Below are positions 18,745-46,823 of a stretch of DNA of 64,000 bases, in pieces (position 1 is the stretch's first letter; each line of letters begins with the position of its first letter). The stretch comes from a virus: the IMG/VR virus record IMGVR_UViG_3300031857_015429, positions 1-64,000 of that record. One strand, written 5' to 3'. The notes beneath the pieces are model-generated. The model saw only the letters and a list, made by a program, of their open reading frames with translations, had not been told where the DNA came from and searched no databases. Position numbers and translations under genes: made by a program.

Positions 18745-19488
18745 TTAAAATTCTAAGTATTCGTTATTTCCAATTATTATATACACACCACCCTCAGTTA
18801 TTATAGGGTTAATTAATACATCAACAGGTGGTGTTTGAGTTGGAGTTAAGGTCGGAGTTGGTGTTGGTGTATTAGTCGGTGTAGAAGATGGTGTTGGTGT
18901 ATTAGTCGGTGTAGAAGATGGTGTATGAGTTGTTGTTGTGGTAGTTGTTACGGGAATATGTGTTGTTGTTGTTGTTGTTACAGGATTGTATGTTGTTGTT
19001 GTTGTTGTTACAGGTGGACATGGGGGACACGTCGGGCAAGGTGTTGTAGTTGTAGTTGTAGTATAAGGTCCGTTAACACAACAAGGAAATTCGGAAACAT
19101 AACAACTTTCATAAGGTAATTCGTCACTTATAAAAGACTCTTGTACATTTATAAATAAATTTTCTCTTATTGGTAAAATTAAAACACCATCATCATTACG
19201 TAACATGAATTGTCCTTCATAACGTCCTACTCTATTTGTGTCTTTATTTGTGAATTGGTAATAGATGTAATATTCAGGTTCCGCATTAGGGTCTTCAAAA
19301 AGTTTTTCAACAAACCCCGCAGGTCTACTACTTATTTTTGGAACCCCTGTCTCAACATCAACCATAGAAAAGAATATTGTGGACAACTCTATGGTATTCA
19401 TAAAGTTATTATAATCACTTCTACCGTCCTTAACTACTTGTAATTTTAATACTGGTAATGTTGCGTTTTTTTTAATAAAAAACTCCAT
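18745..19488 (-). CDS. Virion surface protein with poly-Thr and Thr/Pro linkers
   Basis: The N-terminal 135 residues form a compact domain (starting MEFFIKKNATLPVLKLQVVK, later DTNRVGRYEGQFML). They are followed by poly-Thr runs (several of six to seven Thr) interrupted by PCPTCPPCPP, then Thr/Pro/Ser repeats (TPTPSSTPTN). A 20-residue hydrophobic tail ends the protein. The Thr runs match those inserted in the tail sheath. The layout suggests an anchoring domain holding a stalk that could be O-glycosylated. A consensus late box precedes it. The neighbouring upstream gene is a glycosyltransferase. Function not recognised beyond this. Confidence 0.65.
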   Translation of the reverse strand: MEFFIKKNATLPVLKLQVVKDGRSDYNNFMNTIELSTIFFSMVDVETGVPKISSRPAGFVEKLFEDPNAEPEYYIYYQFTNKDTNRVGRYEGQFMLRNDDGVLILPIRENLFINVQESFISDELPYESCYVSEFPCCVNGPYTTTTTTTPCPTCPPCPPVTTTTTTYNPVTTTTTTHIPVTTTTTTTHTPSSTPTNTPTPSSTPTNTPTPTPTLTPTQTPPVDVLINPIITEGGVYIIIGNNEYLEF

Positions 19489-24491: not shown

Positions 24492-25739
24492 TTATAAATT
24501 TCCTGTTAATCGGTCACACCATCCTTTAGACTTGGAATACGGCCAAACAACCCAATAAGATGGTTTATGTGTTGTTTGAAACTGCCTCCACACTTTACAA
24601 TAACCATCAGGGTCATTTTTCATTCTTTGGATTTCTCCTGGGTCGGCATCTTGTCTATAGATAGTTTCATCATTTTCATCGTGGAAGGCAACCACCCAAA
24701 AATCATAATCATCTTCAGGTACACTATCATAACCAATATCAATACAATGTTTGAATATTGTTGCAAAACTACTCAACCACTCTTCTTCAGTTTCATAAAT
24801 GTGTGGGTTAGGTGGATATTGTTTATCTAAAGTATATTGTTGCACTGCTCTTCTTGAAAACAAAAGTCCTGAATATATTTCATAATCTCTTAAAGTTCTT
24901 TCGGTTCCAAAACCATAGTTTCCGAAATCAATGGTTACCTCTTCACCATCCATAGCAAATAATTGTCTGTTTTTTGCGTGAGACACATTATTTTTAGTAC
25001 CCCAATCTTTATCATCATCCCATTGTTTTACACGACCTTTTCTTGTATACTCGTGCCAAATAACTACTTTATGAGGGTGAAACAAATCATATCCGTGAGT
25101 ATATGCTCTTGCCGCTATTGAAATCTCTTCTCCGTGAAAATAAAACTCAGGGTCGTGTTGTACCTCTTCACTAAACTTACCTAATGTAAACGCAAAATGA
25201 GCGGAATAAAATCTTGCAGGGATTGGTTCCTTTAATTTATCCCAGCCAGGTATTGTCTCAGGTAAGAAAAATACCGCACCTTCAGGTATAAATCTATCAA
25301 ACACCATTCGCCAAGGTTCTCTTATTCTTTCCGCGGGGTCATTCTCAGGATTAAATGATGAAACATATCCCGTTAGTAAAGGTTTTTCGAACCCTTTCTT
25401 TTGAAGTTGTTTAACCATCTTAATTAGAGTGTCGTCCCAATCCTTTTCAAATCTCATATGGGAATCTATCTGAAGAGTGTATTCTTCACCACCATATAAT
25501 TGTTGGACTTGATTTCTCGCCCAACAAACACCTTTAGATTCTGAATATAAAACATCAACAACTCTAAATCGTTTATCTTTTGAATATTCCTCCAAAGAAT
25601 CAAAACCATCTTCAGGGTGATATTGTCTACAAATACCAATAACCAAGTTTTTTGGTCGTTTAGCATTTTCAATCATACTTTTAATTGTAGGGATAAGTTG
25701 GGGGTCTCTATATGAGGCAATCTGAACAAATATTTTCAT
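24492..25739 (-). CDS. Glycosyltransferase of the GlcNAc-transferase type (Skp1-GnT-like family)
   Basis: A 415-residue protein beginning MKIFVQIASYRDPQLIPTIK. It is followed by CRQYHPEDGFDSLEEY, SKGVCWARNQVQQLY and YTLQIDSHMRFEKDWD near residue 86. This series matches the 'glycosyltransferase (GlcNAc)' family named after the Dictyostelium Skp1 enzyme, in which the D-x-H/DSH site binds metal. Members can add GlcNAc directly to a hydroxyl-bearing residue. As the first gene of the six-gene sugar block it could initiate the glycan on Thr-rich fibres; that is inference. It follows the Thr/Pro-repeat genes and precedes the GT2 gene by 4 nt. Confidence 0.85.
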   Translation of the reverse strand: MKIFVQIASYRDPQLIPTIKSMIENAKRPKNLVIGICRQYHPEDGFDSLEEYSKDKRFRVVDVLYSESKGVCWARNQVQQLYGGEEYTLQIDSHMRFEKDWDDTLIKMVKQLQKKGFEKPLLTGYVSSFNPENDPAERIREPWRMVFDRFIPEGAVFFLPETIPGWDKLKEPIPARFYSAHFAFTLGKFSEEVQHDPEFYFHGEEISIAARAYTHGYDLFHPHKVVIWHEYTRKGRVKQWDDDKDWGTKNNVSHAKNRQLFAMDGEEVTIDFGNYGFGTERTLRDYEIYSGLLFSRRAVQQYTLDKQYPPNPHIYETEEEWLSSFATIFKHCIDIGYDSVPEDDYDFWVVAFHDENDETIYRQDADPGEIQRMKNDPDGYCKVWRQFQTTHKPSYWVVWPYSKSKGWCDRLTGNL

Positions 25740-27275: not shown

Positions 27276-28607
27276 TTATAAACTAAACTGTAATTTAATT
27301 CCTCCCGAACCGTCTTGTAGTGTTATAGGACTACCATCTTGTAATAATAATAAGCTAGCGACTTGTGTTGGAGTTACTGTCATTGTTGGGGTAACACTAG
27401 GTGTTGGTGTATTAGTAGGTGTTTCAGTCGGGGTTGGTGTTATTGACGAGCTAGGTGTATTAGTAGGTGTTTCTGTTGGTGTTGGTGTAGGAGTATTAGT
27501 TGGTGTTTCAGTTGGTGTAGGTGTTATTGACGAGCTAGGTGTATTAGTAGGGGTTTCGGTAGGAGTGTTAGTAGGAGTATTAGTTGGTGTTTCAGTTGGT
27601 GTAGGTGTTATTGACGAGCTAGGTGTATTAGTAGGGGTTTCGGTAGGAGTATTAGTTGGGGTTTCAGTTGGTGTTTCAGTTGGTGTAGGTGTTATTGACG
27701 AGCTAGGTGTATTAGTAGGGGTTTCGGTAGGAGTGTTAGTAGGAGTATTAGTTGGTGTTTCAGTCGGGGTTGGCGTGTTTGTCGGAGTTTCTGTTGGTGT
27801 ACTAGTAGGAGTTTCAGTAGGTGTATTAGTAGGGGTTTCTGTCGGTGTATTGGTAGGGGTATTAGTTGGTGTTTCAGTAGGAGTATTGGTAGGGGTTTCG
27901 GTAGGAGTATTAGTTGGCGTTTCAGTTGGTGTATTAGTTGGAGTATTGGTAGGGGTTTCGGTAGGAGTATTAGTTGGCGTTTCAGTTGGCGTTTCAGTTG
28001 GTGTTTCAGTAGGAGTATTAGTTGGCGTTTCAGTTGGTGTATTAGTTGGTGTATTGGTAGGGGTTTCGGTAGGAGTATTAGTTGGCGTTTCAGTTGGCGT
28101 TTCAGTTGGTGTTTCAGTAGGAGTGGGTGTTAGAGTTTCTGTAGGAGTATTGGTTGGAGTTTCTGTAGGGGTATTGGTCGGCGTTTCTGTAGGGGTGTTA
28201 GTAGGAGTGTTAGTTGGCGTTTCAGTTGGTGTGCTAGTCGGAGTTTCAGTAGGTGTACTAGTAGGTGTTTCGGTGGGCGTATTAGTTGGTGTTTCAGTTG
28301 GTGTATTGGTAGGAGTATTAGTCGGAGTTTCTGTTGGAGTATTAGTTGGGGTTTCAGTAGGAGTATTGGTAGGGGTTTCAGTAGGAGTATTGGTAGGTGT
28401 GGGTGTTGGTGGAATTATTGTTGACGAACAAGTTTTATTGTAAAAAGAAAAATAGATATCATATGTTCCATATGGATAGTCAGTAAAATAAGTATACGGT
28501 ATAGTTTGAAGACCTATATTTATAGTCCCACCAGTTAAAGGATAAAAAGTAATATCCCCAACCTGTCCGTTGTAATTAACACTTGATATGATTATTGAAA
28601 ATGACAT
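27276..28607 (-). CDS. Mucin-like Thr/Pro repeat surface protein
   Basis: The 443-residue protein has a head of about 65 residues ([20 protein letters not shown] core), nearly identical to the head of the next upstream fibre gene. About 340 residues (67-406) then consist almost only of TPTNTPTE-type repeats with occasional PSSSITP. A 37-residue tail ends with [18 protein letters not shown]. Roughly half of the repeat residues are Thr or Ser. This is the composition of a densely O-glycosylated mucin stalk, and the sugar genes lie just downstream. The repeat is also a DNA minisatellite. The long open frame on the opposite strand (Val/Gly repeats) is a shadow. Confidence 0.72.
27400..28412. repeat. 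Degenerate minisatellite encoding the Thr/Pro stalk
   Basis: About 1 kb of tandem 12-, 18- and 24-nt variants. On the plus strand units read like GTTGGTGTTTCAGTAGGAGT, with silent third-position differences between copies. Larger blocks (for example around [11 protein letters not shown]) recur three to four times, indicating duplication by slippage or unequal recombination. The reading frame is kept throughout. Confidence 0.9.
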
Positions 28608-28611
28608 ATTA

Positions 28612-30432
28612 TTATAAACCGTATTTTGTTTTATCTACATTAAAGTTTTGTAACACTTGAGAGGACGATAAAGCAGTGTTATATATTCTCACTATTGAAA
28701 CTGTTCCCTTGAAAAATATCTCACCTGTCCCATCGGTTTTAAGTCTACACGAAATACCAACCGAACTTGTATTACTTACTTGTCCTATACCCACTAAACT
28801 GGCGGTGCCTCCCGATACACCATTTCTATAAAGTGTGAAGACATCTGTTGTGAAGTTGAAAACCCCCACGACTTGTGCCCACGTATTTGTTGGGAATCCT
28901 GTTAAGTTTATATTTCTAAAAGTAGTACCATCATAAACTGCCGCGGTTACCGTACCAGTATTTTCGGCGTATCTAAAAACATATGGATACCTCAATTGAT
29001 TAGTCTGATTCCATTTCTCTAATATTTCGGCTTCAGCAGTATTTGCTTGACCCGACGATGGGTTAAACCAAATTTCAACAGTATACTCACTGGTATTTGT
29101 AAAGTTCGTTACACCATCAACACTTGGTATTCTACCATATTGAGTAGTTCCATTAAATGTAAACCCACTTAATATATTATAAGTTGGACTACCCGATAAA
29201 ATCGCATCTGTAGTCCCAACAGTTGTATCCCAAACAGTTCCTGAGCCAATATAACTACTTGGTGATAATTGTAGTTGTAAGTTTGATGTTACGATACTAG
29301 GTGTTGCCGATGGTGTTGAGGTTTTTGTTGTAGTTGGTGTGTTAGTTGGGGTAACTGTTGGTGTTGGTGTGGGTAATATATATTTAGCACTATCATAATT
29401 ATAGTTTTGTAACACTTGAGCCCCCGATAAACCAATGTTGTAAATTTGAACCGCACCTAATCTATAAGAACAAGCGGAAGTTGTTGTTGTCAAATCCGTA
29501 GTGGATGGGTATCCGAAATTGAAATACATCGGTAAACTAGGCCCTAAATTGTATGGTGTGTCTCTCGAATAGGTTGATATTCCAACCATTGTTCCGTTTA
29601 CATACGCAGTAAGTGTGGTCCCATTATATGTCCAACCAACATAATACCAATTATTCAGAGAGTGAGTAATGGATGATGTTATTGGTGCAGGACCATTGAT
29701 AGTGTATGGCCAAACTCCGAATAAAAATCTATCACTAGAATCCCTTTGAATTTGAACATCGAACCAACCAAAGTCAGGTGAAAGAGAGCCTTGTTCAGAA
29801 TAAATTATACCATTAGATGTTGGGTAAATCCAAAGGAAAGTAGATTGAGCCGTTCCTGTATTTACAGGTGATAAGTATGGGTTAATATTTGATGTGTATA
29901 TATACTCAGATACTCCACCATCAATAGTTAGATATTTCGGAGAATCGTTTGTGTATGAAATAACACCTGTCATTGTCCCATTTATATTACCTTGTAAGTC
30001 AGTTATTATTGACCCACTACCACTATAAGAACTTGTGTTTTGAATATCCCAATTCATTATCAATCCTGATGATACTATAGAGTTAGTTGGTGTTTGAGTA
30101 TTTGTTGGGGTAGAAGTAGGAGTTGGAGTTTCAGTAGGTGTGTTGGTTGGTGTTTCTGTAGGAGTATTTGTAGGAGTTTCTGTAGGAGTATTTGTAGGAG
30201 TTTCAGTTGGTGTATTAGTTGGGGTTGGTGTTGGAGGTGCTATTGAAACTGAACAAGTTATATCATATGATGAAACATAAATATCATACACCCCATATGG
30301 GTAATCTGTGAAATAAACATACGGTATTGTTTGTGGTCCGATGTTTATCGTACCACCAGTAAGTGGGTAAAAAGTGATATCCCCAACTTGTCCGTTGTAA
30401 TTAATACTTGCTATGGTTATTGATAATGACAT
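28612..30432 (-). CDS. Fibre protein with Thr/Pro stalk and two LamG/concanavalin-like domains
   Basis: The 606-residue protein begins with the same 65-residue head as its downstream neighbour ([17 protein letters not shown]). A stalk of TPTNTPTE repeats follows (about 67-118). Two beta-sandwich domains of LamG type come next, at about 120-352 and 385-606, joined by a second TPT linker. Each domain ends with the same signature ([24 protein letters not shown]). Both contain the [19 protein letters not shown] or [21 protein letters not shown] strand pair typical of LamG folds. These are usually carbohydrate-binding, so a receptor-binding fibre is likely. It overlaps the next gene by 1 nt. Confidence 0.8.
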
Positions 30433-30659
30433 TATAAAGGGTTAGTTATTTTAATATTTAATTCTGAAGGTTCACCTAATACATTTTTTAATGTATCACC
30501 ATAAACTATGTAATAAAAATCATCCGTCTCATAATACTCGTATTCACACCAACTTTTAGATAAACAACCTTCTTTAGGGTATCCATAAAATTGGTCACAT
30601 AATTTAGTGGCTTCTTTAGCCTCATTTTCAGTTGTATATTTATAACCTAATACTATCAT
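30432..30659 (-). CDS. Small fibre-associated protein of unknown function
   Basis: A 75-residue protein with three Cys and many aromatic residues (LCDQFYGYPKEGCLS; WCEYEYYETDDFYYIVYGD; NVLGEPSEL). I have an impression of similar small proteins in fibre regions of Bacteroidota phages, but I cannot name a family. It is squeezed between two fibre genes (1-nt overlap with the LamG gene's start and 1 nt from the upstream stop), so it is co-expressed with them. It might be a fibre chaperone or minor subunit. Function unknown. Confidence 0.6.
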   Translation of the reverse strand: MIVLGYKYTTENEAKEATKLCDQFYGYPKEGCLSKSWCEYEYYETDDFYYIVYGDTLKNVLGEPSELNIKITNPL

Positions 30660-30660
30660 A

Positions 30661-32439
30661 TTAATATGTGTTATAAAAATTGTTTATGTTGGTCTCAATA
30701 CCTACTTTATTTACCGATTGGTCTGTATTATAGAACACAAATTCATTAACCCCACCTCTAAAATATAATGCACTTGACCCAGTTCTACCCGCGATATGAG
30801 TAAGATTAATTGGTGTCAACGACGCCCCCAAATCTTGTGAAGGTGCACCATCTTTAGAAATTAACATTCTACCCGTTGAGAAGTCAAAATAACCTAAGTG
30901 AGATAATAAATCTTCGCCCGTTAAACTAAATGCCAATACTCCGTCAAAGAATCCAAGTCCTTGAGCATCAACGAAAGAACCGTTATACCAAGCTCCACCG
31001 ATTGACCCGCTAGACCCGAAGAATATGTAGTTAATATTATTTTGAGAAAATACTTGACCTAAAGTAAATGCTGCGGTTATTTGTATATTTGTTGTTAAAC
31101 TTAATGGGGCTTTTGCCATTGATTCAAAAAAAGAGTGTAAGTAAGGGGTTATTTGATAATTACCATCTTTATCTAATAGTGCCGTTCTAGTCCCATTTAT
31201 AACAACACCTTGTTGTTGATTTGGGGTATATTGATAAGCATGGTTGTCATTACCTGATTGGTCATACCAAACAACAACATAACCAGTACCATTAACTCCT
31301 TGATATAAACCACCTGTAAAAGACCAAGAACCATAAGGACCTGTTACAAAATCCATTAATGCTGGTGAATCTAAAACCACTTTACCATTTATTGTGGTAA
31401 AACCAATGTCTAATTCGGTATTATCAAAATTTCTTCTCACTCTCATGCAAGGACCTGAATATGTTGATGATAATTTTCTAGCCGAAAAAGCCGCAACTGA
31501 ATTAGGGTAATTATCTAATAAAAATGGTGACGGAGTTGTTGGAGTGTTTGTTGGTGTGTTAGTAACTGTCGGTGTTGGTGTTTCTACTGGAAAGTTAATC
31601 TGTAAAGTAAAATCACATTGGGGTGATGGTGTTTTAGTTGGGGTTTGTGTGACAGTAGGTGTCGGTGTTATTGGTATTATAGTTAAAAGAATGTCGCACT
31701 CAGGTGCTGAAGTTTGTGTTGGAGTTGATGTTATTGTTGGTGTTGTTGTATTCGTTGGTGTTTGAGTTGGTGTTTGAGTTGGGGTTTCTGTGTTGGTTGG
31801 CGTTTGAGTATTAGTTGGCGTATTAGTCGGAGTTTCAGTTGGGGTTTCTGTGTTGGTTGGTGTATTAGTAGGTGTATTAGTTGGGGTTTGAGTATTGGTA
31901 TTAGTTTGAGTTTGAGTATTAGTCGGGGTTGAGGTATTAGCTGGGGTTTTAGTCGGTGTTGGGGTTTTAGTTGATGTAATACTAGGTGTTGGGGTTTTAG
32001 TTGATGTAATACTAGGTGTTGGGGTTTTAGTTAATAAACATGGGTCAATTGTTTTAGTTGGGGTTTTAGTCGGTGTTGGGGTTTTAGTATTTGTTGGTGT
32101 TACTGTCGGGGTTTTAGTTACTAAACAAGGATTAAATGTAGGTGTTGATGTTTGGGTTTTAGTATTTGTAGGTGTAGGAGTTTTAGTATTTGTGGGTGTA
32201 GGAGTAACGGTAGGTGTTGGTCTATACACATTCAATATATTAGGACAATCCGCATCTTCAACTAAGATGGTATATGTACCGTACACCTCTCTTGGGGGAA
32301 TTAACAAAGAAGGTTCAAAATCAAAGGGTAATGTTACCTCACCTAAATTAATTGTAACTATATCATTATCAGGTTTAAATAATATGGTTGCTAATTCACC
32401 ATCATAATTTATACTACTTATAGTTATTTTTAATGACAT
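30661..32439 (-). CDS. Fibre protein with long Thr/Pro stalk and C-terminal concanavalin/AbfB-like domain
   Basis: The 592-residue protein has a diverged copy of the shared head (ISSINYDGELATILFKPDND). A stalk from about residue 76 to 300 is rich in TPT, TKTPTP and TQTPTNT, with a few Cys-containing breaks. The C-terminal domain is about 285 residues (about 306-592). It contains GPCMRVRRNFDNTELDIGF and VVWYDQSGNDNHAYQ, the pattern seen in phage and bacterial concanavalin-like domains related to the arabinofuranosidase B N-terminal domain. This fold binds sugars. The role is probably receptor recognition. It lies 15 nt downstream of the protease-bearing tail protein gene. Confidence 0.78.
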   Translation of the reverse strand: MSLKITISSINYDGELATILFKPDNDIVTINLGEVTLPFDFEPSLLIPPREVYGTYTILVEDADCPNILNVYRPTPTVTPTPTNTKTPTPTNTKTQTSTPTFNPCLVTKTPTVTPTNTKTPTPTKTPTKTIDPCLLTKTPTPSITSTKTPTPSITSTKTPTPTKTPANTSTPTNTQTQTNTNTQTPTNTPTNTPTNTETPTETPTNTPTNTQTPTNTETPTQTPTQTPTNTTTPTITSTPTQTSAPECDILLTIIPITPTPTVTQTPTKTPSPQCDFTLQINFPVETPTPTVTNTPTNTPTTPSPFLLDNYPNSVAAFSARKLSSTYSGPCMRVRRNFDNTELDIGFTTINGKVVLDSPALMDFVTGPYGSWSFTGGLYQGVNGTGYVVVWYDQSGNDNHAYQYTPNQQQGVVINGTRTALLDKDGNYQITPYLHSFFESMAKAPLSLTTNIQITAAFTLGQVFSQNNINYIFFGSSGSIGGAWYNGSFVDAQGLGFFDGVLAFSLTGEDLLSHLGYFDFSTGRMLISKDGAPSQDLGASLTPINLTHIAGRTGSSALYFRGGVNEFVFYNTDQSVNKVGIETNINNFYNTY

Positions 32440-32454: not shown

Positions 32455-35295
32455 TTAAAATTTATTCTCTATCGCTAAACAAACTTCACCATTTTGTTTA
32501 ATTAACTTTTCCATATCACTAAATGATATGAATGCGTGACCTGATTTTCCCCAATTTTTCCCCCAACTATTTTTAATTCTAAATAATTTTTTATTTTTAT
32601 CCACCCCATTAATTACATAAGCATGTCCGCCAGTTAATTTACCAGTGACCCTCATTAAACCATTCTTATCAGGGAAAAACATTGACCTATACCAATTAGT
32701 TCCCACAACTACAGGGCCTTTAGTTAAAACAGTATCTATTAATACGTTAATATTATAAGTCCATAAATATGACGAAATCTTATTTGTATTTTTCAAGTAC
32801 TTAGCGCCACCTCTAACTGATGTACCATTATAATTTTCACCAACCCACTCATCTAATTTTTGAGCTTCTTTATAAATTAAGGTTGGATTGATGATTGGGG
32901 ATATACCCTCATGTTTAACTGGTCCGTCCTCAATCCAATGAGCCCAAGCATATCCAACACATTGAGGGGTGTTTTCTTGATTGCCCCACCATTCATCGGC
33001 GTCCCAATACTTAGTTGTTAATATTGTGTTTTTAAGTTTTAACTTATCCTCAATTAAATAATTTTTGTCTCTTTCGTCAGGAATATATACTCTTCCTAAT
33101 GGATGAGGTATTTCAATTGATTCTTCAAGTATATCATTTGTATCAGTAATAACGTAAGTAAAATCATTAATTTCACATACCTTTGTTGAGCAATCAGGGC
33201 AATCAGGATTAAACATTTCAAATTTCTGATTTAGAATTTTGAAGTTGTGTTTAATTTCAGGGGCGGATAACGGAGACGTGTACATTCTAAATTGAGATAT
33301 AGCACCTTCAAATGTTCCAGCAAAATTTTGCTCTATTAATATATTAGTTTTTAGACCATTAAATGTTGTTCCTGTTAAATCGTTAATTGGAAAACATTCA
33401 GGGTCTTGTATATAAGGCCCAAATGGTAACGTTGTTGATGAAAATGTTAAGTTTTCTCGTAATCCTTGAGTACCCCCACCCCACGAGATGTTAAATGGAA
33501 CCCCAACTTGTTTTTCTTTATCAGTATCTAAAGCTCTGGGAATTAATTCCTCAAAATTCTCAATTGTATAAAATATTTTACCATTAATATATATTTTTAA
33601 CCTACCTTCTCGGTAATTTTTTTCACTTATCCATCTATCATTTAACTTAACAATTTCAATTTGTTCAGCAGTTTTTCCGTCAACTTTAGTATAAGGTACA
33701 TTAACCAAAGAAACCGTGTTATTAGCCAATGATTCTAAATAAAGTTTTTCAGTTATTGTATCTAAACCACCTCTAAATAATAAATCACATTCATCTAACC
33801 AATTGTATCTTTCCCACACAATATTAACTTGGAACCAATGTTCTTCCTCTAACCAAGCAGGATTTTCTTGTTCACATCTTGGGTATATAGGTGGGGTACA
33901 ATAATCAACTATCGTATACCCTGTCGTGAATGTAACACCAGTGTTTTCACAAGAGCCCGTTGTTTGACAATCACCTGTAATTGATAACATTCTAACCCCT
34001 ATTTGAGGGTTTTTAGGGTCACCGCATAATCTGAACGATATTGCGTTGGATAATGAATCAAACAATGGGTCCACCTCGCAAGTATTCTCAACTGATGTAA
34101 ATCCTGTTGTTGAGCATTTACAATCATCGCAAGTATCACATTTAGTACATGTTGGTGTGCAAGTTGGTATTATAACACAATTGTCAGGTGTGGGTGTAGG
34201 TGTGGGCGATGGAGTTGGGGTAGGTGTTATTATAGTGTCACACTTATGTTCAAAACATTCCCATCCACACGTTTCACAAGTATAATCTTTACAGTCACAT
34301 CCACAAGTTATTTTTTTCTCTCGGTTACCATTACATAAATTACAACCATAATTAACGTGTGGGTCGTGAATATTATTTACCGACCTAGGAGGGTAAACAT
34401 ATATACAACGACTATCCGTTATTGTTTTATTACAGCAAGCACAGGTAGTTAATCCCGTTAAAGGTGTTGTTACTCTTGTGTACCCTGTAAAACAATTTGG
34501 GGTACCATCAGCGTGATGATAAAATTTATTTTCCGCTCTAGTCCCAAAATAAAAGAATGTATTTTTATTATTAGGGTAAATTTCGTTTAAAGTTGTTTCA
34601 TTGGGGCCAGGAAAATATTCATCAATTAATCTAGGTTTTAGAATCATCTCAACTGACCAACCTTTATTCATTCTTTCAGGTAAAATATCATAATCATACC
34701 CAAATAATTTATAGAACCCTTGATAAAACCCTCCATATAGTTCGTGGTATTTACCGACAAAAGGGTCGTTTTTACTTACAACTTCATATAATATAGTTTT
34801 ATCAAAACCTGAAAATCTAATGTTAGGTGAACTAGTGTATCCTGTGGTTTGAAATAGTTTAAGTCTCCTATCAAAATTAAGTCGTGTAAACTTTAATGAG
34901 TCATTAATTAACCCATTAGTAAAATTTATGGTTTGTCCCGTCATTTCAGATACTAAACCATTATCAATACCTGTTAAACCAATATCACAAGAAGAATGAC
35001 CTGTAAAACAATTTAAATCTAAATCATTAGTTTCATAATAGTTTTGAGAAACAAATATATTATTAAGATTATAATTTTTATATGTTAAGTTTAAACCTTG
35101 AGATGTTAGAGGATTATCAATATCAAAATAAACGGGTAATTTATTACCATATGTTTGAGCAATCAAATATGGTGAGAAAACAACCTCTTGATTGTACCCT
35201 TGTTCGTCAGACGTTAACGACATATCATATGACTCATTAACGAGTTTTACGCCCCAATTTGGATAAACATATTGATTTATATTTTGACCCGCCAT
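32455..35295 (-). CDS. Tail/fibre protein with LamG-like domain and C-terminal papain-like (C1) protease
   Basis: A 946-residue multidomain protein. Residues about 1-260 are a unique beta-rich region. About 272-400 is a Cys-rich stretch with many CxxC pairs (CACC, CNLCNG, CGCDCK, CETCGWEC, CDTCDDCKC) broken by a TPTPTPSP linker, suggesting metal binding or disulfides. About 480-680 is a concanavalin-like domain ending in AISQFRMYTSPLSAPEIKHNF. The last 190 residues form a C1-type cysteine protease: Gln six residues before Cys in NQENTPQCVGYAWAHW (Cys near 778), His in GGHAYVINGVD (near 892) and Asn in KNSWGKNWGKSGHAF (near 908). A virion-borne protease could cleave host surface protein or process the fibre. 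The gene opens the minus-strand fibre operon. Confidence 0.85.
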   Translation of the reverse strand: MAGQNINQYVYPNWGVKLVNESYDMSLTSDEQGYNQEVVFSPYLIAQTYGNKLPVYFDIDNPLTSQGLNLTYKNYNLNNIFVSQNYYETNDLDLNCFTGHSSCDIGLTGIDNGLVSEMTGQTINFTNGLINDSLKFTRLNFDRRLKLFQTTGYTSSPNIRFSGFDKTILYEVVSKNDPFVGKYHELYGGFYQGFYKLFGYDYDILPERMNKGWSVEMILKPRLIDEYFPGPNETTLNEIYPNNKNTFFYFGTRAENKFYHHADGTPNCFTGYTRVTTPLTGLTTCACCNKTITDSRCIYVYPPRSVNNIHDPHVNYGCNLCNGNREKKITCGCDCKDYTCETCGWECFEHKCDTIITPTPTPSPTPTPTPDNCVIIPTCTPTCTKCDTCDDCKCSTTGFTSVENTCEVDPLFDSLSNAISFRLCGDPKNPQIGVRMLSITGDCQTTGSCENTGVTFTTGYTIVDYCTPPIYPRCEQENPAWLEEEHWFQVNIVWERYNWLDECDLLFRGGLDTITEKLYLESLANNTVSLVNVPYTKVDGKTAEQIEIVKLNDRWISEKNYREGRLKIYINGKIFYTIENFEELIPRALDTDKEKQVGVPFNISWGGGTQGLRENLTFSSTTLPFGPYIQDPECFPINDLTGTTFNGLKTNILIEQNFAGTFEGAISQFRMYTSPLSAPEIKHNFKILNQKFEMFNPDCPDCSTKVCEINDFTYVITDTNDILEESIEIPHPLGRVYIPDERDKNYLIEDKLKLKNTILTTKYWDADEWWGNQENTPQCVGYAWAHWIEDGPVKHEGISPIINPTLIYKEAQKLDEWVGENYNGTSVRGGAKYLKNTNKISSYLWTYNINVLIDTVLTKGPVVVGTNWYRSMFFPDKNGLMRVTGKLTGGHAYVINGVDKNKKLFRIKNSWGKNWGKSGHAFISFSDMEKLIKQNGEVCLAIENKF

Positions 35296-35348: not shown

Positions 35349-36203
35349 ATGATAGAATATAATAAAGAATATTTCAGTAATAATTATTATTTCCTTTTAA
35401 AAGAAGGTTATGATAAAATATCGTTATTCTATTCTGTGGCCGAAACTTTAACTGAATCAAGAAAAAAAGACAAAAAAATAGTTTTAAGTAAAAAGAATGA
35501 AAAAAGTATTAAAGATTTGGTTGGTAAGTTTTTAAAAACAAAGAAGAAATTAAACCCAAAACAGATTGAAAAAAAATTCAAAGACTTAGATTCTGAAGGA
35601 GAAATTGAGGAATTGGTTGATGCTGATGGTACTATGTTAGGTTCTAATTCACCAATTCTTAATCAAAAGTTAACACCTAAAAAAACTATGGACCAAACTG
35701 TTGCAATGTCCAGAGTAACTAATGACCCTGTTACAAGAGGTTACCGTGTGTATTGGGGTGAGAGTGAAGATGAACAAGATAATGTTGTATCTGAGGTTGA
35801 TTATTCTGATGCTTTTGGGTATGAGGAAACTAAAGATATGGATTTTGAAGATACTGTAGAGACTCTTGAAGATATGGGTGTTGATAATGGCGAGGAAAGA
35901 GCTGAGGAAATGGGTAAAGACCCTAAGTTAGAAAAGAAAAAAGTTAAAGGAGCCTTCATTAGACAGCGTTTAGTTGAAAAAGAACCGATTGAAGAAATAC
36001 AAAGACAAAAAATGGTTAAGATGGTTGAAGACATTTTAACTAAAAAATCAAAAAAAGATGGTGATGTAGTTAAAACAGACTCCAACTCAAACCAAACAAT
36101 AAGTAAATTTTTAAAGAGGAATTTAAAATCAATAAAGAAACTAGCCGAAAAAGAGGGGATTAGTTTAGACCAATTGATTAAAACTTTAAAATACGATGAA
36201 TAA
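35349..36203 (+). CDS. Charged, mostly helical protein of unknown function
   Basis: A 284-residue protein very rich in Lys, Glu and Asp. The start (FSNNYYFLLKEGYDKIS, then SVAETLTESRKK) could be a processed N-terminal tag. A central part includes MSRVTNDPVTRGYRVYWGESE and a long acidic segment (about 155-195). The basic C-terminus (SKFLKRNLKSIKKLAEKEG, then ISLDQLIKTLK) looks like a small helical nucleic acid-binding tail. Charge segregation of this kind is common in prohead core or internal virion proteins, but there is no specific match. It leads a late plus-strand unit of five small genes. Confidence 0.7.
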   Translation: MIEYNKEYFSNNYYFLLKEGYDKISLFYSVAETLTESRKKDKKIVLSKKNEKSIKDLVGKFLKTKKKLNPKQIEKKFKDLDSEGEIEELVDADGTMLGSNSPILNQKLTPKKTMDQTVAMSRVTNDPVTRGYRVYWGESEDEQDNVVSEVDYSDAFGYEETKDMDFEDTVETLEDMGVDNGEERAEEMGKDPKLEKKKVKGAFIRQRLVEKEPIEEIQRQKMVKMVEDILTKKSKKDGDVVKTDSNSNQTISKFLKRNLKSIKKLAEKEGISLDQLIKTLKYDE

Positions 36204-38155: not shown

Positions 38156-39373
38156 ATGAAAGAAAAAATTAATGTGTTAGTCTTACCAAGCGATAAAACT
38201 GGTGTCGGAAAGTTTCGCTCAGTTGACCCCCATGTAATGTTACAAAATATGTATCCTAATGATTTTTATGTGGATATTGATTTTGAACCTAAAGTAAATG
38301 ACCCTAATTATTGGAAAAAATATCAAATTGTTCATATCCATAGAAATGTTGGTTCATCTTATGAGGGGACTCAACAGTTGATTAACTACTTAAAATCCCA
38401 AGGAATTAAAGTTATTGTTGATTTAGATGATTATTGGTTACCAACAAAAGAACACCCAATCCACTCATTAATTGTTCAAAACAAAATACATGAAAAAATT
38501 GTTGCTAATCTAAAATTAGCGGATTATGTAACAACAACTACAGAAATTTTTGCCGATGAAATTAGAAAATACAATAAAAATGTGGTTGTTTTTCCAAATG
38601 CAATAAATCCAGATGAACCTCAGTTCAAACAACCAACATTAGAATCTGAAAGAATTAGAGTTGGTTGGTTAGGGGGGTCATCTCATTTACATGATTTAAA
38701 ATTATTGGATGGATTTGTTCAAAAAAACTCAAGTATTAATGATAAAATCCAATATGTGTTATGTGGATTTGATATTCGTGGGACCGTAACTGAAGTTAAT
38801 CAACAGACAGGTGAACAAAAACAAAGACCAATTAAACCTAGCGAAACCGTTTGGGTTAAGTATGAAGAGATTTTTACAAATAACTATAAAATTATTGACG
38901 GTAAATACAAAGATTACTTATTTGAATTTAAAGAAGATGAATACAAAAGTGATATTATATTACCATACCAAAGAGTTTGGACAAAACCTGTAACATCTTA
39001 CGCTATGAATTACTCTAAATTTGATATTTCTTTAGCACCAATTAAAAACCATATTTTTAACAGGGTTAAATCTCAACTTAAAGTTATTGAGGCGGGGTTT
39101 TACAAAAAAGCGTTAATCGCATCTAACGTTGGTCCTTATACAATTGACTTGAAACATTCACTTAAAAATGGTAATTTTGTTGATGGTAATGCTTTGTTAG
39201 TTGACGAAACTAAAAATCATAGTGATTGGTCAAAGTTTATTAAAAAACTTGTTGAGAACCCTAATATGATTACCGATATGGGTGAAAGATTGTATGAAAC
39301 TGTTAAAGACAAATACAATTTACAAAATGTAACCATTTTGCGAAAAGAATTTTACGAATCAATTATAAAATAA
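38156..39373 (+). CDS. GT-B glycosyltransferase (GT4-like)
   Basis: A 405-residue protein with two Rossmann-like halves. The N-terminal half has INVLVLPSDKTGVGKFRSV (a start typical of phage GT4-like enzymes), YQIVHIHRNVG and IKVIVDLDDYWLP. The C-terminal half opens with RIRVGWLGGSSHLHDL and has FDISLAPIKNHIFNRVKSQL followed by KVIEAGFYKKALIASNVGP. The last corresponds to the donor-binding E-x7-E-type helix. It is the first gene of the plus-strand sugar cluster and has no late-type box, so the cluster is probably expressed earlier than structural genes. Confidence 0.85.
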   Translation: MKEKINVLVLPSDKTGVGKFRSVDPHVMLQNMYPNDFYVDIDFEPKVNDPNYWKKYQIVHIHRNVGSSYEGTQQLINYLKSQGIKVIVDLDDYWLPTKEHPIHSLIVQNKIHEKIVANLKLADYVTTTTEIFADEIRKYNKNVVVFPNAINPDEPQFKQPTLESERIRVGWLGGSSHLHDLKLLDGFVQKNSSINDKIQYVLCGFDIRGTVTEVNQQTGEQKQRPIKPSETVWVKYEEIFTNNYKIIDGKYKDYLFEFKEDEYKSDIILPYQRVWTKPVTSYAMNYSKFDISLAPIKNHIFNRVKSQLKVIEAGFYKKALIASNVGPYTIDLKHSLKNGNFVDGNALLVDETKNHSDWSKFIKKLVENPNMITDMGERLYETVKDKYNLQNVTILRKEFYESIIK

Positions 39374-39376
39374 GAT

Positions 39377-40078
39377 ATGATTAATATTCCAATTACTAAA
39401 ATTTTATTCTTAGACATTGAGACTGTTGGGGGTTGTCCTGATTACGAATCTTGTCAAAAATTTAGTCCCGAACTTGCGGACCAATTCAGTAAGTACTTTG
39501 ATTGGTTTCAAAAAAGATTTCCAGAAGACGTAGGACTTGTTCCTGATGATGTTTTTATAAAACGGGGGGCATTGGTCCCCGAATTTGCAAAAATTGTTTG
39601 TGTGTCAATGGCATTTGTTATGGATAATGGTGATGTTAAAAAACAAACATTTTCAGGTGAAGATGAAAAGGAACTTTTAATCCAAGTTAGAAATCTTTTA
39701 GATAGATGTCATAAACTTGATTTTTATCTATGTGGTCACAATTTAAAGAATTTTGATATTCCTATGTTGGCTAAGCGTATGATTATTAATGGGATTATGC
39801 CATCCAAGATTCTTCCATCATATGATACAAAGCCATGGGAAGTTAAAGCGATTGACACTAAAGAAATATGGCAATACGGGGCTTATACCGCAATTGGGTC
39901 CCTTGATTTACTTTGCTCTTGTTTGGGGATTGAATCACCAAAAGGTGGTGAGGTGTCTGGGGCAAATGTCCACGATTCTTATTGGAATAAGAATATGATA
40001 AAAGAAATTGCCGAATATTGTGAGAAGGATGTGGAGGTATTAATAGAAGCTATAAAAAAATTAAAAGAACTAAAATGA
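39377..40078 (+). CDS. 3'-5' exonuclease, PolB-type DEDD fold
   Basis: A 233-residue protein with the DEDD exonuclease motifs: ILFLDIETVGG (DxE, residues about 13-15), CGHNLKNFDIPMLAKRM near 118 (second Asp) and EYCEKDVEVLIEAI near 212 (third Asp). The arrangement matches the family of predicted 3'-5' exonucleases related to the proofreading domain of family B polymerases. It likely trims DNA ends in repair or recombination, independently of gp43, which has its own exonuclease domain. Its stop overlaps the dUTPase start (ATGA), so the two are translationally coupled. Confidence 0.87.
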   Translation: MINIPITKILFLDIETVGGCPDYESCQKFSPELADQFSKYFDWFQKRFPEDVGLVPDDVFIKRGALVPEFAKIVCVSMAFVMDNGDVKKQTFSGEDEKELLIQVRNLLDRCHKLDFYLCGHNLKNFDIPMLAKRMIINGIMPSKILPSYDTKPWEVKAIDTKEIWQYGAYTAIGSLDLLCSCLGIESPKGGEVSGANVHDSYWNKNMIKEIAEYCEKDVEVLIEAIKKLKELK

Positions 40079-40680
40079 CAAATCCTGAAAATTACAATTT
40101 CTACAACGAAAAAATGAAAGAAATTGATGAGATTATGAAATTAACTAAAGATGATGACGTTGGAGATTTTGACTCAATAATGGACGAATTTGGTGTTGAT
40201 TTTAGTGAAATTGAAAAGGCATTTAATGAATATGAACCAACACTTGATTTAGGGTATACTAAGTTAAATGAAAATGCAATTGACCCGTTCTATAATTATT
40301 CAAGTGATTCTGGATTTGATTTATATTCAACCGAGGAAATAGAAATACCTTCTTTTGGTAGAGTTTTAGTTCCGACAGGTCTTTCATTTGATATTAAAGA
40401 TGGGTACGAAATTCAAGTTAGGTCTAAAAGCGGCTTAGCGATTAAACAAGGACTAATGGTTCTTAACTCACCAGGAACTGTTGACAATGGATATACAGGT
40501 GAAGTTCAAGTAATTGTATTTAACACAAATAATCACCCTGTAACGATAACTAAAGGTATGAAGGTTGCTCAAGCAGTTCTTTGCCCTGTTGTTAATGGAA
40601 AGTGGGTTAATTTGGTTGAAAAAGAAAAAATAAACGAAAAAGAAAGAGGTGATAACGGATTTGGAAGTACAGGGATATGA
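40075..40680 (+). CDS. dut: dUTP diphosphatase
   Basis: All five trimeric dUTPase motifs are present in order: SDSGFDLYS, RSKSGLAIKQG, SPGTVDNGYTGEV, KGMKVAQAVLCPV and RGDNGFGSTG. The enzyme hydrolyses dUTP to dUMP, protecting the phage from uracil incorporation and feeding dTMP synthesis. At 201 residues it carries an extra N-terminal region of about 60 residues (helical and acidic) absent from typical enzymes of about 150. It overlaps both neighbours by 3-4 nt. Confidence 0.95.
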   Translation: MTNPENYNFYNEKMKEIDEIMKLTKDDDVGDFDSIMDEFGVDFSEIEKAFNEYEPTLDLGYTKLNENAIDPFYNYSSDSGFDLYSTEEIEIPSFGRVLVPTGLSFDIKDGYEIQVRSKSGLAIKQGLMVLNSPGTVDNGYTGEVQVIVFNTNNHPVTITKGMKVAQAVLCPVVNGKWVNLVEKEKINEKERGDNGFGSTGI

Positions 40681-40847
40681 AAAGTAAAAAAGAAATAGAG
40701 TGTGAGATTGAAAAGGTGAAGTCTGAAATTGCCATGTCAAATATGAATGATGGGTGGTGGAATGGGTATATGACAGAAAAATTAGATAAGTTAAAGAAAT
40801 TATTAGAAGAAAACGAAGATGATAACAATAATTTACTCAACACATAA
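40677..40847 (+). CDS. Small charged coiled-coil-like protein
   Basis: An ATG overlapping the dUTPase stop (ATGA) opens a 56-codon frame. It contains two Lys/Glu-rich helices separated by MNDGWWNGYM, a helical hairpin layout. Its end overlaps the next glycosyltransferase by 29 nt. The start-stop coupling and composition support a real gene. Function unknown. Confidence 0.6.
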   Translation: MKSKKEIECEIEKVKSEIAMSNMNDGWWNGYMTEKLDKLKKLLEENEDDNNNLLNT

Positions 40848-42327
40848 AGATAAAGAATACAACGATAAGTTTAATGACCATCTTGTGTTAACATCAGGAC
40901 TTCAATGGGTACAGGTTTTACCTTACGTAAACCATAACGAATACTCATTATCCGAACTTTACAATAAAGGAATAAAAGATGCCAAGTATGATATTGTTGT
41001 ATGTTGTCATAACGATATTAAACTTGAAAAAAATTGGGGTAAAAAATTGTTAGAGGATTTTTCTAACAACCCTGAATTCGGTATAATTGGTAAGGCTGGT
41101 AGTTGTTATTTTCCTGAGTCGGGTGTGTATTGGGAAAGATTAAAACAAACTATGGTTGGTCAAGTTTATCATCATCCTGACGGTCATAAAAAGTTTTTAA
41201 GTAAATACTCACCAAAATTACCATTCTTAGTTCCTGTCGTAAGTATTGATGGTTTATTTATGGCATTTGACAAAACAAAGATAATACATAAATTTGATGA
41301 GACCATGGGACGTTTCCATTTTTATGACCATAGTTTTTGTTTACCTAATTATGTTGATGGTGTTAAGATAGGTGTTACCTCATCATTTGAAATAACCCAC
41401 CAATCGGTTGGGAAACCGAATCAAGAATTTTATGAAACCAAAGAAAAATTTATTAATAAATTCAGGTCAATTTTACCGTTAGATTTAAAACCTGAATCAA
41501 TATATGTTCCTGAAATTAAAGAAAAACAAATTAAAAATGTTGGTAAAGTTGCGGTCATCATCCCAACAAAAAGTAAATTAAATTTATTATTTGATTGTGT
41601 TGATTCATTTCACGAACACTGTAATACATTGTTATATGATATTTTTATTGCCGATACAGGTTCGTCAGTTGAAGAAAAGGAATTAATTAAAATAAGGTAT
41701 GAAAATACAAATGTTAAATTAATAGAATTTGATTATTATAATTTTGCTAAGATAAATAATGAAGTAGTAAAACATCATATTGGAAATGAATATGAATTTA
41801 TCCTATTCTGTAACAATGACATTAAGTTGTTGAACAATGCGATTTATGGTATGTTGAAAGTTTTTAAAGAAAAAACTAAGGTCGGAACTGTTGGGGGTAG
41901 ACTTCATTTTGAAAATAAAACCATTCAGCATGATGGAATTATACTTTTTGTTGATAAAAGTGGTAATATCCGATTGAGTCATAAAAATTTAACAAATTAT
42001 TATAATTATTCTACAACCCTAACTAAGGAAACGGGTAATACAGGTGGGTTATTGATGATTAAGAAAGACATTTTTGAAAAATGTGGGTATTTTAATGAAA
42101 ACTATATTAGTTGTTTAGAAGATGTTGAGTTAAATTTAAAATGTGTGACATTGGGGTTGACAAATTATTGTGATGGAAACATTGTTGCATATCATTATGA
42201 AAGTCAAACAAGGAACGAGGATAGTGATAATTTAAAAAAATTACAACAAGATTACCATAACAATTTATTACCGTTTATGTTAGATAATTTCGACAAAATT
42301 AAAGAATGTTTTTTAAATATGAATTAA
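40819..42327 (+). CDS. Tandem-domain GT2-type glycosyltransferase
   Basis: A 502-residue protein with two GT-A domains. The first (about 1-220) has IVVCCHNDIKLEKNW near residue 65 and a PVVSIDGLFMAFDK block. The second (about 244-500) has VAVIIPTKSKLNLLFDCVDS, then FILFCNNDIKLLNN near 330. It then has KETGNTGGLLMIKKDIFEKC and a YISCLEDVELNLKC acceptor motif, as in rhamnosyl-/family-2 transferases. The second domain looks catalytically complete; the first keeps the N-D pair. Such double enzymes add two sugars or work as polymerases. It may elongate the same glycan as neighbouring genes. Confidence 0.87.
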   Translation: MITIIYSTHKDKEYNDKFNDHLVLTSGLQWVQVLPYVNHNEYSLSELYNKGIKDAKYDIVVCCHNDIKLEKNWGKKLLEDFSNNPEFGIIGKAGSCYFPESGVYWERLKQTMVGQVYHHPDGHKKFLSKYSPKLPFLVPVVSIDGLFMAFDKTKIIHKFDETMGRFHFYDHSFCLPNYVDGVKIGVTSSFEITHQSVGKPNQEFYETKEKFINKFRSILPLDLKPESIYVPEIKEKQIKNVGKVAVIIPTKSKLNLLFDCVDSFHEHCNTLLYDIFIADTGSSVEEKELIKIRYENTNVKLIEFDYYNFAKINNEVVKHHIGNEYEFILFCNNDIKLLNNAIYGMLKVFKEKTKVGTVGGRLHFENKTIQHDGIILFVDKSGNIRLSHKNLTNYYNYSTTLTKETGNTGGLLMIKKDIFEKCGYFNENYISCLEDVELNLKCVTLGLTNYCDGNIVAYHYESQTRNEDSDNLKKLQQDYHNNLLPFMLDNFDKIKECFLNMN

Positions 42328-42328
42328 A

Positions 42329-42583
42329 ATGGAAACAATAGGAAACTTAATAGATAAATTAACTGTGACCAATATTAGAATTTGGATGGCTGAGGATATT
42401 AAACGAAATGTTAACGCTACTGATTCTGAAATATCTAACGCAACCAAAATAACTAATATTGCTAACCAACAAAGAAATGATTTAATACAAGAAATTGATG
42501 AAATGATTAACGATATTGTAATAAATCAAAAACCTCAAAAATTATATAAACAAGGCAGTAACAAAATGTATGGAAAAAATTAA
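42329..42583 (+). CDS. Small helical protein of sugar clusters (DUF4254-like look)
   Basis: An 84-residue protein with the pattern TIGNLIDKLTVTNIRIWMAE, later an Asn-Gln-Gln-Arg-Asn-Asp block followed by an acidic helix. I associate this with small proteins (resembling DUF4254) that accompany glycosyltransferases in polysaccharide clusters. The name is tentative. It begins 1 nt after the GT2 stop and overlaps the next gene by 14 nt. It could be a partner subunit of one of the transferases. Confidence 0.62.
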   Translation: METIGNLIDKLTVTNIRIWMAEDIKRNVNATDSEISNATKITNIANQQRNDLIQEIDEMINDIVINQKPQKLYKQGSNKMYGKN

Positions 42584-43343
42584 TTTTATATGTGGGGGAA
42601 AAACGGGTGACTTATTACATAACCTAATGGTTATAAAATTAATATGCGAAAAAAATAACAAAAAAGGTGTTTTATATATAACAAACTTATCCGAATATGG
42701 TGGGGATGGGTTTCATTTTGATATGCACAGTACATATTATGATTTAGAACCATTTATAATGTCTCAAATTTATATTAATTCATTCCACTTACTAAGAGAA
42801 GGGGATGTTGTTGAGGATTATATAAACTTAAATCAATGGAGGTGGTCCAAATTGTTCTTCAAATCTAACTGGATTGATATGCTTTGTGATAACTATAATT
42901 TAGAACCTCCTAAAACACCCTGGGTTCAATCTGATAAAATTGAGGGTCTTGAGGATTCTATTCTAATCCACAGAAGTTTACACAGACATACAGTCCTTTT
43001 TCCTTGGGAAAAATTAGTAAACGAAAATAAATGTAAATTTATTACTAATATTAACACGCTACATGAATATGAGTCATTCCCATATAAAGATAAGGTTGAA
43101 TTGATTCACTGTAATTCATTTAATGAACTTGTACAATCAATTAATTCGTGTAAATTTTTTATAGGTAATATGTCAACCCCATTAGCAATTGCCCACTGTT
43201 TGGGGAAACCTCATTTGGGTGAACTAATCATACCCGATGAAACTCATTATATTGGGGATGAGAAATATATTAATGATTATTATTATATAACCTATGGGGG
43301 TTATAAACATTTAAATGGTATTGAAAAGTTCATTAATATATGA
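42570..43343 (+). CDS. GT9/heptosyltransferase-like glycosyltransferase
   Basis: A 257-residue protein beginning INFICGGKTGDLLHNLMVI, the 'G-x-x-GD-x-x' start typical of GT9-like GT-B enzymes. It ends with KFFIGNMSTPLAIAHCLGKP, the region where such enzymes read a Gly-x-x-Ser/Thr-x-x-x-H-x-A donor motif. It is short for the family (heptosyltransferases are usually over 320). Linked to the epimerase-like gene by an ATGA overlap. Donor unknown. Confidence 0.72.
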   Translation: MEKINFICGGKTGDLLHNLMVIKLICEKNNKKGVLYITNLSEYGGDGFHFDMHSTYYDLEPFIMSQIYINSFHLLREGDVVEDYINLNQWRWSKLFFKSNWIDMLCDNYNLEPPKTPWVQSDKIEGLEDSILIHRSLHRHTVLFPWEKLVNENKCKFITNINTLHEYESFPYKDKVELIHCNSFNELVQSINSCKFFIGNMSTPLAIAHCLGKPHLGELIIPDETHYIGDEKYINDYYYITYGGYKHLNGIEKFINI

Positions 43344-44281
43344 TTAAAATACTAATAACAGGCCCTTTAGGTCAGGATGGTATATTGTTAACCGAAATAA
43401 TTCAAGAAGATTATGAATTGCACGGGGTTTGTAGAATGATGACCCCGATTGAGAGGTTAAAAGAACATAATAAAAAATTCAATATTAATTTATGTTTATC
43501 AGAATTGTCAGATTTTAATTATGTAAATCAATTAATAAAAACAATTAAACCAGATGTGGTTGTTAATTTTGCAGGAGAAACTGATGTTATAAATCCATGG
43601 GAAGACACTTACAGAACATTTGAACATAATTACATTATTCCCTCAAATATATTAAATTCAATTGTTAAACAAAATAAAGATATTTTTTTCTTTCAGGCAT
43701 CTTCATCATTAATGTATGGAAGGTCAAATGAAAAAATAATTACCGAAGAAAGTAAAACATCTCCAATGTACCCTTATGGGATTTCAAAATTAGCGGTCCA
43801 TAATTTAATGTCCGAATATAGAATTAAATACGGTATTAAATGTTCTTCAGGTATATTTTTTAATCATGAATCCTATTATAGAAGTGATAAATTTGTTAGT
43901 AAAAAAATATCATCATTAGTTGGTCAAATAATTAAGGGAGAAAACAAAAAAATAAAATTATACGGTTTAAATTTTAATAGAGATATTAGCCATGCTAAAG
44001 ATTTTATGAGTGGAGTTAAATTAATTATTGACAATAAAATCAATGACGATTTTGTTTTTAGTAGTGGTGTATCAACTAATATGTTTGAGTTTGCTAAAAA
44101 ATTTTTTACCCTACATAATTTAAATTTTTATGACTATATTGATTATGAAGAATCAAAAAATTTATCTATTGATTATAATATAATTGGTAATAATTTTAAA
44201 CTTAAATCAATTGGGTGGGAACCAAAATATAATGTTGATGAGTTAATAATTGACATGATAAAAAAAGAATTAAAAAAATAA
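43340..44281 (+). CDS. NAD(P)-dependent sugar-nucleotide dehydratase/reductase, GMD-related
   Basis: A 313-residue extended short-chain dehydrogenase. The cofactor loop is ITGPLGQDGILLTEII and the catalytic region is FQASSSLMYG, with a YPYGISK Tyr-x3-Lys pair near 145. Then come SGIFFNHESYY and NRDISHAKDFM, blocks shared with GDP-mannose 4,6-dehydratase (for example NHESP.R and RDWGHA). It is clearly a diverged relative of the second dehydratase in this cluster. It lacks the Arg and Thr residues after NHES that GMD uses for its tetramer/NADP site. It may be a GDP-4-keto-6-deoxymannose reductase or epimerase giving a second deoxysugar. Exact reaction undetermined. Confidence 0.8.
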   Translation: MIKILITGPLGQDGILLTEIIQEDYELHGVCRMMTPIERLKEHNKKFNINLCLSELSDFNYVNQLIKTIKPDVVVNFAGETDVINPWEDTYRTFEHNYIIPSNILNSIVKQNKDIFFFQASSSLMYGRSNEKIITEESKTSPMYPYGISKLAVHNLMSEYRIKYGIKCSSGIFFNHESYYRSDKFVSKKISSLVGQIIKGENKKIKLYGLNFNRDISHAKDFMSGVKLIIDNKINDDFVFSSGVSTNMFEFAKKFFTLHNLNFYDYIDYEESKNLSIDYNIIGNNFKLKSIGWEPKYNVDELIIDMIKKELKK

Positions 44282-44283
44282 AA

Positions 44284-45216
44284 ATGAGTATATTATATAT
44301 CAATCATTCAAAATCACAGTGTGGTGTATATGAAATTGGTAAGAGGATTTATGACCTTTTAGATAAAAACATTTTACCTGTTAAGTATTTTGAAACCCCT
44401 GTAAATGGGGAATCGGAATATAGGTCAATTATGGAAAATGAAAAACCTAATTATGTATTGTATAATTATTACCTAAGTACATTACCATATATACATAAAG
44501 GTCTTTTTAATGAGTATCCCAATGCTAAACATATCGGTATAATCCATGACCCACTAACTCCTGAAATGGTTAGTTTTTACAACACAACTTTTGATTGTTG
44601 GGTGATTCATGACGATACTAATCAAACTATAAGTGATAATAAATTTACGACTATTAGACCAATAAGAAGGTTTACAAAACAAAAAAATGAAAACAATATT
44701 TTAAATATAGGTTCTCATGGTTTTAGTGTTTCCCCTTGGAAAATGTTTGACAGGATGATTGAACTAATACACGACGAATTTGATGAGGTAAATATTAATA
44801 TGAATATAACTCAAGCTACTTTTGGTGGTGGTGATGATACATATAAATTTAATTTATGGAAAAATATTATTAATAAGAAAAACGTTAATTTAAATATTAC
44901 TAACACTTATTTTGAATCTGAGGATGAGGTTATTAATTTCTTATCTAAAAATGATTTAAATATGTACTTTTATAATCCCCCTCACCCGTTTATCGGGGTT
45001 GGTGGAAGTGCTGATTTGGCGGTAAGTTCGCAATCTAGTTTAGTGGTTAATAATACCTATATGTACCGACATTTTCATAATCACATAGGTTTTTTTGAAC
45101 AAAAAAATAATTTAAAGTCGTTTTTAAAAAACAATACAAAAGTAAAAGAGTTGTACTACTTGTGGTCACCTGAAAGAATGACAAATGATTATAAAAGAAT
45201 GATAGAATCGTTATGA
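44284..45216 (+). CDS. GT-B glycosyltransferase-like protein
   Basis: A 310-residue protein with ILYINHSKSQCGVYEIGKRI at the start. A HIGIIHDPLTPEMV block and NNILNIGSHGFSVSPWKMF follow, the second opening the C-terminal half. Near the end GVGGSADLAVSSQSSLVVNN occupies the donor-binding site of GT4-like enzymes. It is a paralogue of the next gene, with which it overlaps by 4 nt (ATGA). Both begin with a Cys-Gly-Val (Q/N-CGV) motif. The pair may act sequentially or as a heterodimer. Confidence 0.72.
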   Translation: MSILYINHSKSQCGVYEIGKRIYDLLDKNILPVKYFETPVNGESEYRSIMENEKPNYVLYNYYLSTLPYIHKGLFNEYPNAKHIGIIHDPLTPEMVSFYNTTFDCWVIHDDTNQTISDNKFTTIRPIRRFTKQKNENNILNIGSHGFSVSPWKMFDRMIELIHDEFDEVNINMNITQATFGGGDDTYKFNLWKNIINKKNVNLNITNTYFESEDEVINFLSKNDLNMYFYNPPHPFIGVGGSADLAVSSQSSLVVNNTYMYRHFHNHIGFFEQKNNLKSFLKNNTKVKELYYLWSPERMTNDYKRMIESL

Positions 45217-46821: not shown

Positions 46822-46823
46822 AA

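Follow-up and report, generated by a model that had tools for sequence, protein, structure and literature searches.

Enzymatic tips on phage tails mostly cut polysaccharide or peptidoglycan. In depolymerase tailspikes an exchangeable enzymatic tip stands on a common anchor, acts on polysaccharide and has a demonstrated virion location. The NlpC/P60 tail hydrolases of jumbo phages have a papain-like fold and are at times carried on tails (PMC7824862); they belong to another family, that of peptidoglycan hydrolases. Within the papain family itself, C1A proteases of the xylellain type are already known from tailed phages, since they have been acquired by Myoviridae and Siphoviridae according to a study of the evolution of the family (PMC10380794). 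The nearest homologue in a studied isolate is the C1 peptidase ORF382 of phage XacN1, a potential lytic enzyme that is absent from those reported in the virion proteome (PMC5852040).

The C1 domain described here lies at the end of a long protein of a freshwater virus of bacteria and was analysed in a window of 64,000 nucleotides, the whole stretch of DNA studied. Its homologues match 64 phage records, and in each of the ten regions inspected the gene stands alone. It is found between the endolysin and holin genes in Gordonia phages Cafasso, BlueNGold, GMA2 and Lilbeanie and adjoins the holin in Arthrobacter phage Mufasa8, but it is outside lysis cassettes in BillNye, Thonko, Sycamore, XacN1 and RAS14, in the last two near ribonucleotide reductase genes. 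The peptidases of XacN1 and Stenotrophomonas phage RAS14 (PHROG 16701) belong to one family with it along almost the entire domain, at about 40-41% identity, and Cafasso gp30, BlueNGold gp110 and Mufasa8 gp26 share the C1 domain with about 31-34% identity; all of them differ from our protein in being stand-alone, the latter three inside or adjoining lysis cassettes. A large phage protein with a C1 domain has also been deposited already (A0A6J5LAR6, uncultured Caudovirales Peptidase_C1 protein, 829 aa), but its identity to the query domain in a fold alignment is 17%, and we know of no function or shuffling for it. The sequence-only reading had called virion-attached C1 proteases unusual in tailed phages. 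Given the 64 phage records and the evolutionary study (PMC10380794), the presence of the enzyme is not novel, whereas the way in which many freshwater phages fuse it to putative virion proteins and swap it between them appears to be new. No description of such fusion and shuffling was found in a literature search covering few subscription journals, and articles dealing with Far-T4 and with large freshwater phages mention no such protease in their main text.

The C1A domain and its catalytic residues

The open reading frame at 32455..35295 (minus strand) encodes 946 amino acids and its C-terminus is a C1A (papain-family) domain of 213 residues. Its features are the following.

33097..35295, minus strand: NINQY carrier region, residues 1-733
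32455..33096, minus strand: C1A papain-like protease domain (residues 734-946), with the conserved segment GRxYIPDxRDxNYLI in its N-terminal part
32977..32979, minus strand: Gln773, oxyanion-hole position, 6 residues before Cys; Q in 67/67 homologues, a conservation partly selected because one search pattern included that Gln
32959..32961, minus strand: Cys779, position of the catalytic nucleophile, in register with the xylellain Cys; C in 67/67 homologues
32623..32625, minus strand: His891, catalytic position, in GGHAY; H in 66/66 homologues reaching it
32569..32571, minus strand: Asn909, catalytic position, in KNSWGKNWG; N in 66/66 homologues reaching it

The assignment to the C1 peptidases, proposed from the letters alone, was borne out by profiles, PDB matches, the predicted fold and the full signature. 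Pfam PF00112 (Peptidase_C1) matched with E=1.1e-6 and 29.3 bits against a cut-off of 20.7, the best match covering profile positions 111-203 only, and the last 213 residues matched PHROG 16701, named peptidase, with E=1.4e-56. Among PDB sequences the domain found xylellain and cathepsins S and B first, and the xylellain profile match had E=2.9e-11. An AlphaFold2 model of the domain, built from a 46-sequence alignment, reached pLDDT 87 and pTM 0.85; with this model Foldseek returned xylellain of Xylella fastidiosa (3ois) at the top (E=1.8e-10, probability 1.00) and enzymes of the papain family next, and the TM-score was 0.69 against 3ois and about 0.6-0.65 against cathepsins. The model thus predicts a papain fold, and the agreement of PF00112, PHROG 16701, AlphaFold and Foldseek strongly supports a C1 protease. 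PF00112 was the sole Pfam match at E<=0.01 in the protein; no match to NlpC/P60 or CHAP, to the I29 inhibitor prodomain or to the S77 profile was obtained there, and the identity of an NlpC/P60-type peptidoglycan hydrolase was rejected for this lack of a profile match. Xylellain is the closest solved structure, with all four residues (Gln773, Cys779, His891 and Asn909) in register in the profile alignment, but the identity over the fold alignment is about 18-20%, and xylellain is a stand-alone enzyme while the C1 domain here is fused to 733 further residues. We therefore place the domain in C1A and do not file it as the short single-domain xylellain-type form.

The Gln six residues before the Cys, the Cys, the His and the Asn had been noticed beforehand in the order of C1 peptidases, and they are there with the papain spacing, the Gln exactly six residues before the Cys. 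The bare order (Q-x5-C...H...N) is weak evidence because 3 of the 56 long ORFs of the window have it; the full signature (Q-x5-C, [GD]HA, NSWG) is unique among them to ORF 32455..35295. A chance match of four residues was rejected, as signature, profiles and fold agree. The extent of the domain had to be corrected: it had been taken as the last 190 residues (to 33030), a range that is too short because it cuts off the conserved GRxYIPDxRDxNYLI segment, whose D, R and D are invariant among homologues, and the start is at about residue 734 (33096).

Conservation was evaluated in 67 distinct proteins, two isolate phages included, one of which proteins is cut off before the His and Asn. A first scan of IMG/VR gave 17 relatives and an alignment-based one 144, of which 80 were kept; the Cys, His and Asn were absent from the search patterns of this larger scan. 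The dN/dS of the domain was 0.03-0.26 in 14 near pairs, which indicates strong purifying selection. Invariant residues together with these ratios make the pattern expected of a working enzyme, so the domain is predicted to be a catalytically competent, xylellain-like C1A endopeptidase. Catalytically dead C1 relatives exist elsewhere, yet the same selection and the invariance of Q, C, H and N in every homologue reaching them make a dead papain-fold binding module very improbable.

Carriers of the domain and their place in the genome

By its sequence, the window is assigned to a T4-like phage. The genes that bear on the carrier are listed here.

165-923: T4 baseplate protein
2558-5887, minus strand: tail sheath, closest among isolates to Microcystis phage Mel-JY01 and Flavobacterium phages
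13837-16647: DNA polymerase B
18745..19488, minus strand: IKKN-module protein of 247 aa without protease; in relatives this module bears C1 near DNA polymerase B
27276..28607, minus strand: ITFYP module with a long mucin-like TPTNTPTET repeat
28612..30432, minus strand: ITFYP module, TPT repeats and Laminin_G_3; C1 is found on such modules in relatives
30661..32439, minus strand: 592 aa with a divergent ITFYP-like N-terminus and TPT repeats; the C-terminal domain matches a PHROG named virion structural protein
35349..36203, plus strand: conserved divergent neighbour that marks the position of the NINQY gene in relatives

All three recurring carrier types (IKKN, ITFYP and NINQY) are thus present in the window, and the protease is on the NINQY protein only. 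In the region of 733 residues that precedes the protease, an N-terminal part is followed by LamG-like parts, which are split by a Cys-rich and TPTPTP stretch, and by a short linker. The Cys-rich region attributed to the protein was confirmed. The LamG-like domain is less clear: it is weak in the protein itself (E=0.14) and was matched by 3 of 8 homologues, the best with 7.8e-4.

In the 63 distinct IMG/VR proteins the C1 domain is always C-terminal. Its carriers are NINQY in 38, IKKN in 8, ITFYP in 6 and different short N-termini in 5, and in 6 it is alone; one row of this tally (L092, mislabelled and of IKKN type) was reassigned by hand on inspection. The IKKN module opens with MEFxIKKNxTLPxLK, the NINQY/LamG proteins bearing C1 are about 900-1736 aa long, and the linkers before C1 are TPTPTP or TTTTT. 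The tree of the domain requires 13 carrier changes, about 12 after the correction of L092, with a bootstrap that is not fully settled. One pair, L056 and L060, has C1 domains that are 94% identical and N-termini that are unrelated (29%). Three proteins with IKKN carriers (L010, L011 and L013) gave a dS of 0.45-0.53 in C1 against 0.15-0.17 in the N-terminal module, about a threefold gap, which points to recombination at the border of the domain.

Each of the 28 related virus records searched has exactly one copy of C1; one record gave a further short match, which belongs to the same ORF. The NINQY carrier was found in 23 of these records, in one case by a very short match; as the records are fragments, counts per genome are lower bounds. 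When a different protein carries C1, the NINQY protein is without it and either stops early or bears another tip, such as BspA-like repeats (L195), a LamG-like end (L199) or, behind TPT linkers, a small domain (L196, L197 and L198). Among 48 distinct NINQY proteins (from the best 80 of 425), C1 forms the end of 21, another 25 are complete proteins lacking it, and 2 are truncated. The alternative ends and this tally indicate that C1 is an optional tip where adhesin-like modules or nothing otherwise stand, and from the compared sequences we describe it as a mobile C-terminal cassette in the relatives.

It had been proposed that the protease ends a tail protein, and this is likely, considering the domain shuffling, the neighbours and the LamG-like sequence. 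The genes beside ORF 32455..35295 have LamG or matches to PHROGs named virion structural protein. The N-terminal 712 aa had no homologue among 50,697 phage records (tblastn, isolate phages) and the profile of the NINQY carrier had no match in a PDB search, so that we infer the virion status of the carrier from its context. The full-length AlphaFold model (pLDDT 46, pTM 0.40) was too poor for the carrier domains to be placed on it. A PDB search with the IKKN module found no significant relative, and its match to the profile of the baseplate anchor BppU_N (E=0.091) is below the cut-off. It was counted against a display on the particle that 11 of the 63 C1 proteins (about one sixth) are alone or on a small N-terminus without a known anchor, and that XacN1 ORF382 does not figure among the lytic enzymes reported from the virion proteome. 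The carriers probably sit on the virion surface, as tail or baseplate decoration.

Other genes of the window were also noted. The tail sheath (2558-5887, minus strand) has 1109 aa, of which the usual sheath profile covers only about the last 290. Three neighbouring proteins (27276-32439, minus strand) have long mucin-like Thr/Pro repeats, and their genes are adjoined by a strong GlcNAc-type glycosyltransferase (PF11397, E=3e-72, 24492-25739, minus strand), which is near the mucin-like genes in several relatives as well; possibly the phage O-glycosylates its own stalks. A run of glycosyltransferase, methyltransferase and apparent sugar-nucleotide genes at 38156-53243 (plus strand) suggests a phage-encoded sugar pathway. 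A 509-aa protein at 9594-11123 (plus strand) contains a full Fe/Mn superoxide dismutase with both Pfam domains, and near the right end, at 61067-62380 (plus strand), a protein of 437 aa has six DUF5122 beta-propeller repeats and is possibly another surface protein.

Possible functions of the protease

Three roles had been suggested for the domain: digestion of host surface proteins, release of the phage and maturation of the fibre. Of these, the evidence favours surface digestion most, release still competes with it, and maturation has the lowest probability. The movement of the same enzyme between surface-type proteins suggests, short of proof, that it is used outside the cell against a host-surface protein. 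We propose that the xylellain-like C1A domain is an optional, exchangeable tip cassette of this group of T4-like freshwater phages, present in one copy per genome and attached to one of several carriers that probably decorate the tail or baseplate; at adsorption it would cut protein outside the host cell, which may be surface or S-layer proteins, adhesins or a protein matrix. Its role would be comparable to that of the enzymatic tips of depolymerase tailspikes; the analogy is functional only, and the folds differ. On balance we lean towards this exchangeable, probably virion-displayed protease tip acting on host-surface protein during adsorption.

The main rival is an enzyme of lysis or release, made late, that would cut envelope proteins, peptides or debris when the infection ends, and so aid lysis or free the progeny from proteinaceous debris; its fusion to surface proteins would hold it on the progeny particles. 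It has this rank because of the actinophage homologues in lysis cassettes (between endolysin and holin in the four Gordonia phages, beside the holin in Mufasa8) and of the stand-alone forms within the same phage group, and the single copy per genome is also in line with it. Even so we consider it unlikely. The homologues of BillNye, Thonko, Sycamore, XacN1 and RAS14 are outside lysis cassettes, the identity between groups is about 28-42% only, and in the group of the window C1 is not beside recognised lysis genes and replaces adhesin-like tips on putative surface proteins.

A role in virion maturation, in which the protease would trim the carrier it sits on or further virion proteins, would agree with the frequent self-processing of C1 peptidases and with the single copy per genome, and the conserved N-terminal GRxYIPDxRD segment could serve as a cleavage or inhibitory segment. 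This role is improbable because 10 of the 13 large relatives encode the usual S77 prohead protease in a gene of its own, a result on which the reading as head maturation protease was rejected; furthermore, C1 is optional on the NINQY protein and the carriers change freely, with no common substrate apparent. A shade less probable still is an intracellular effector of host takeover or counter-defence, fused to structural genes by recombination and with no need of the virion. Stand-alone copies beside DNA polymerase B, and near ribonucleotide reductase genes in XacN1 and RAS14, would agree with an effector, but in 52 of the 63 distinct proteins the domain is joined to one of the three recurring carriers, which have LamG-like sequence or linkers, and adhesin-like alternative tips stand at the same place.

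Searches for a host covered 395 genomes from the class that includes a Ferruginibacter MAG and 291 from the class to which the cyanobacterium Stenomitos belongs, and gave no match, a result that shows little since the search had no positive control. A scan of genome contigs identified no host: apart from two closer matches (48% and 42%) on MAG contigs, it returned for the most part cellular C1 peptidases that are only distantly related.

Meaning for freshwater T4-like phages

Returning to the protease tip that acts at adsorption, it is possible, and we put it forward tentatively, that such tips on virion-surface carriers, swapped against adhesin-like ones, cut host surface protein and help to set the host range. 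If so, many lake phages would contend with a layer of protein on their hosts, and the tips would offer a route toward finding those hosts and receptors. They would be the proteolytic counterpart of depolymerase tailspikes in a large group of freshwater T4-like phages, and the phage C1 peptidases, scattered until now as stand-alone "cysteine protease" annotations, would gain a definite and testable protein context.
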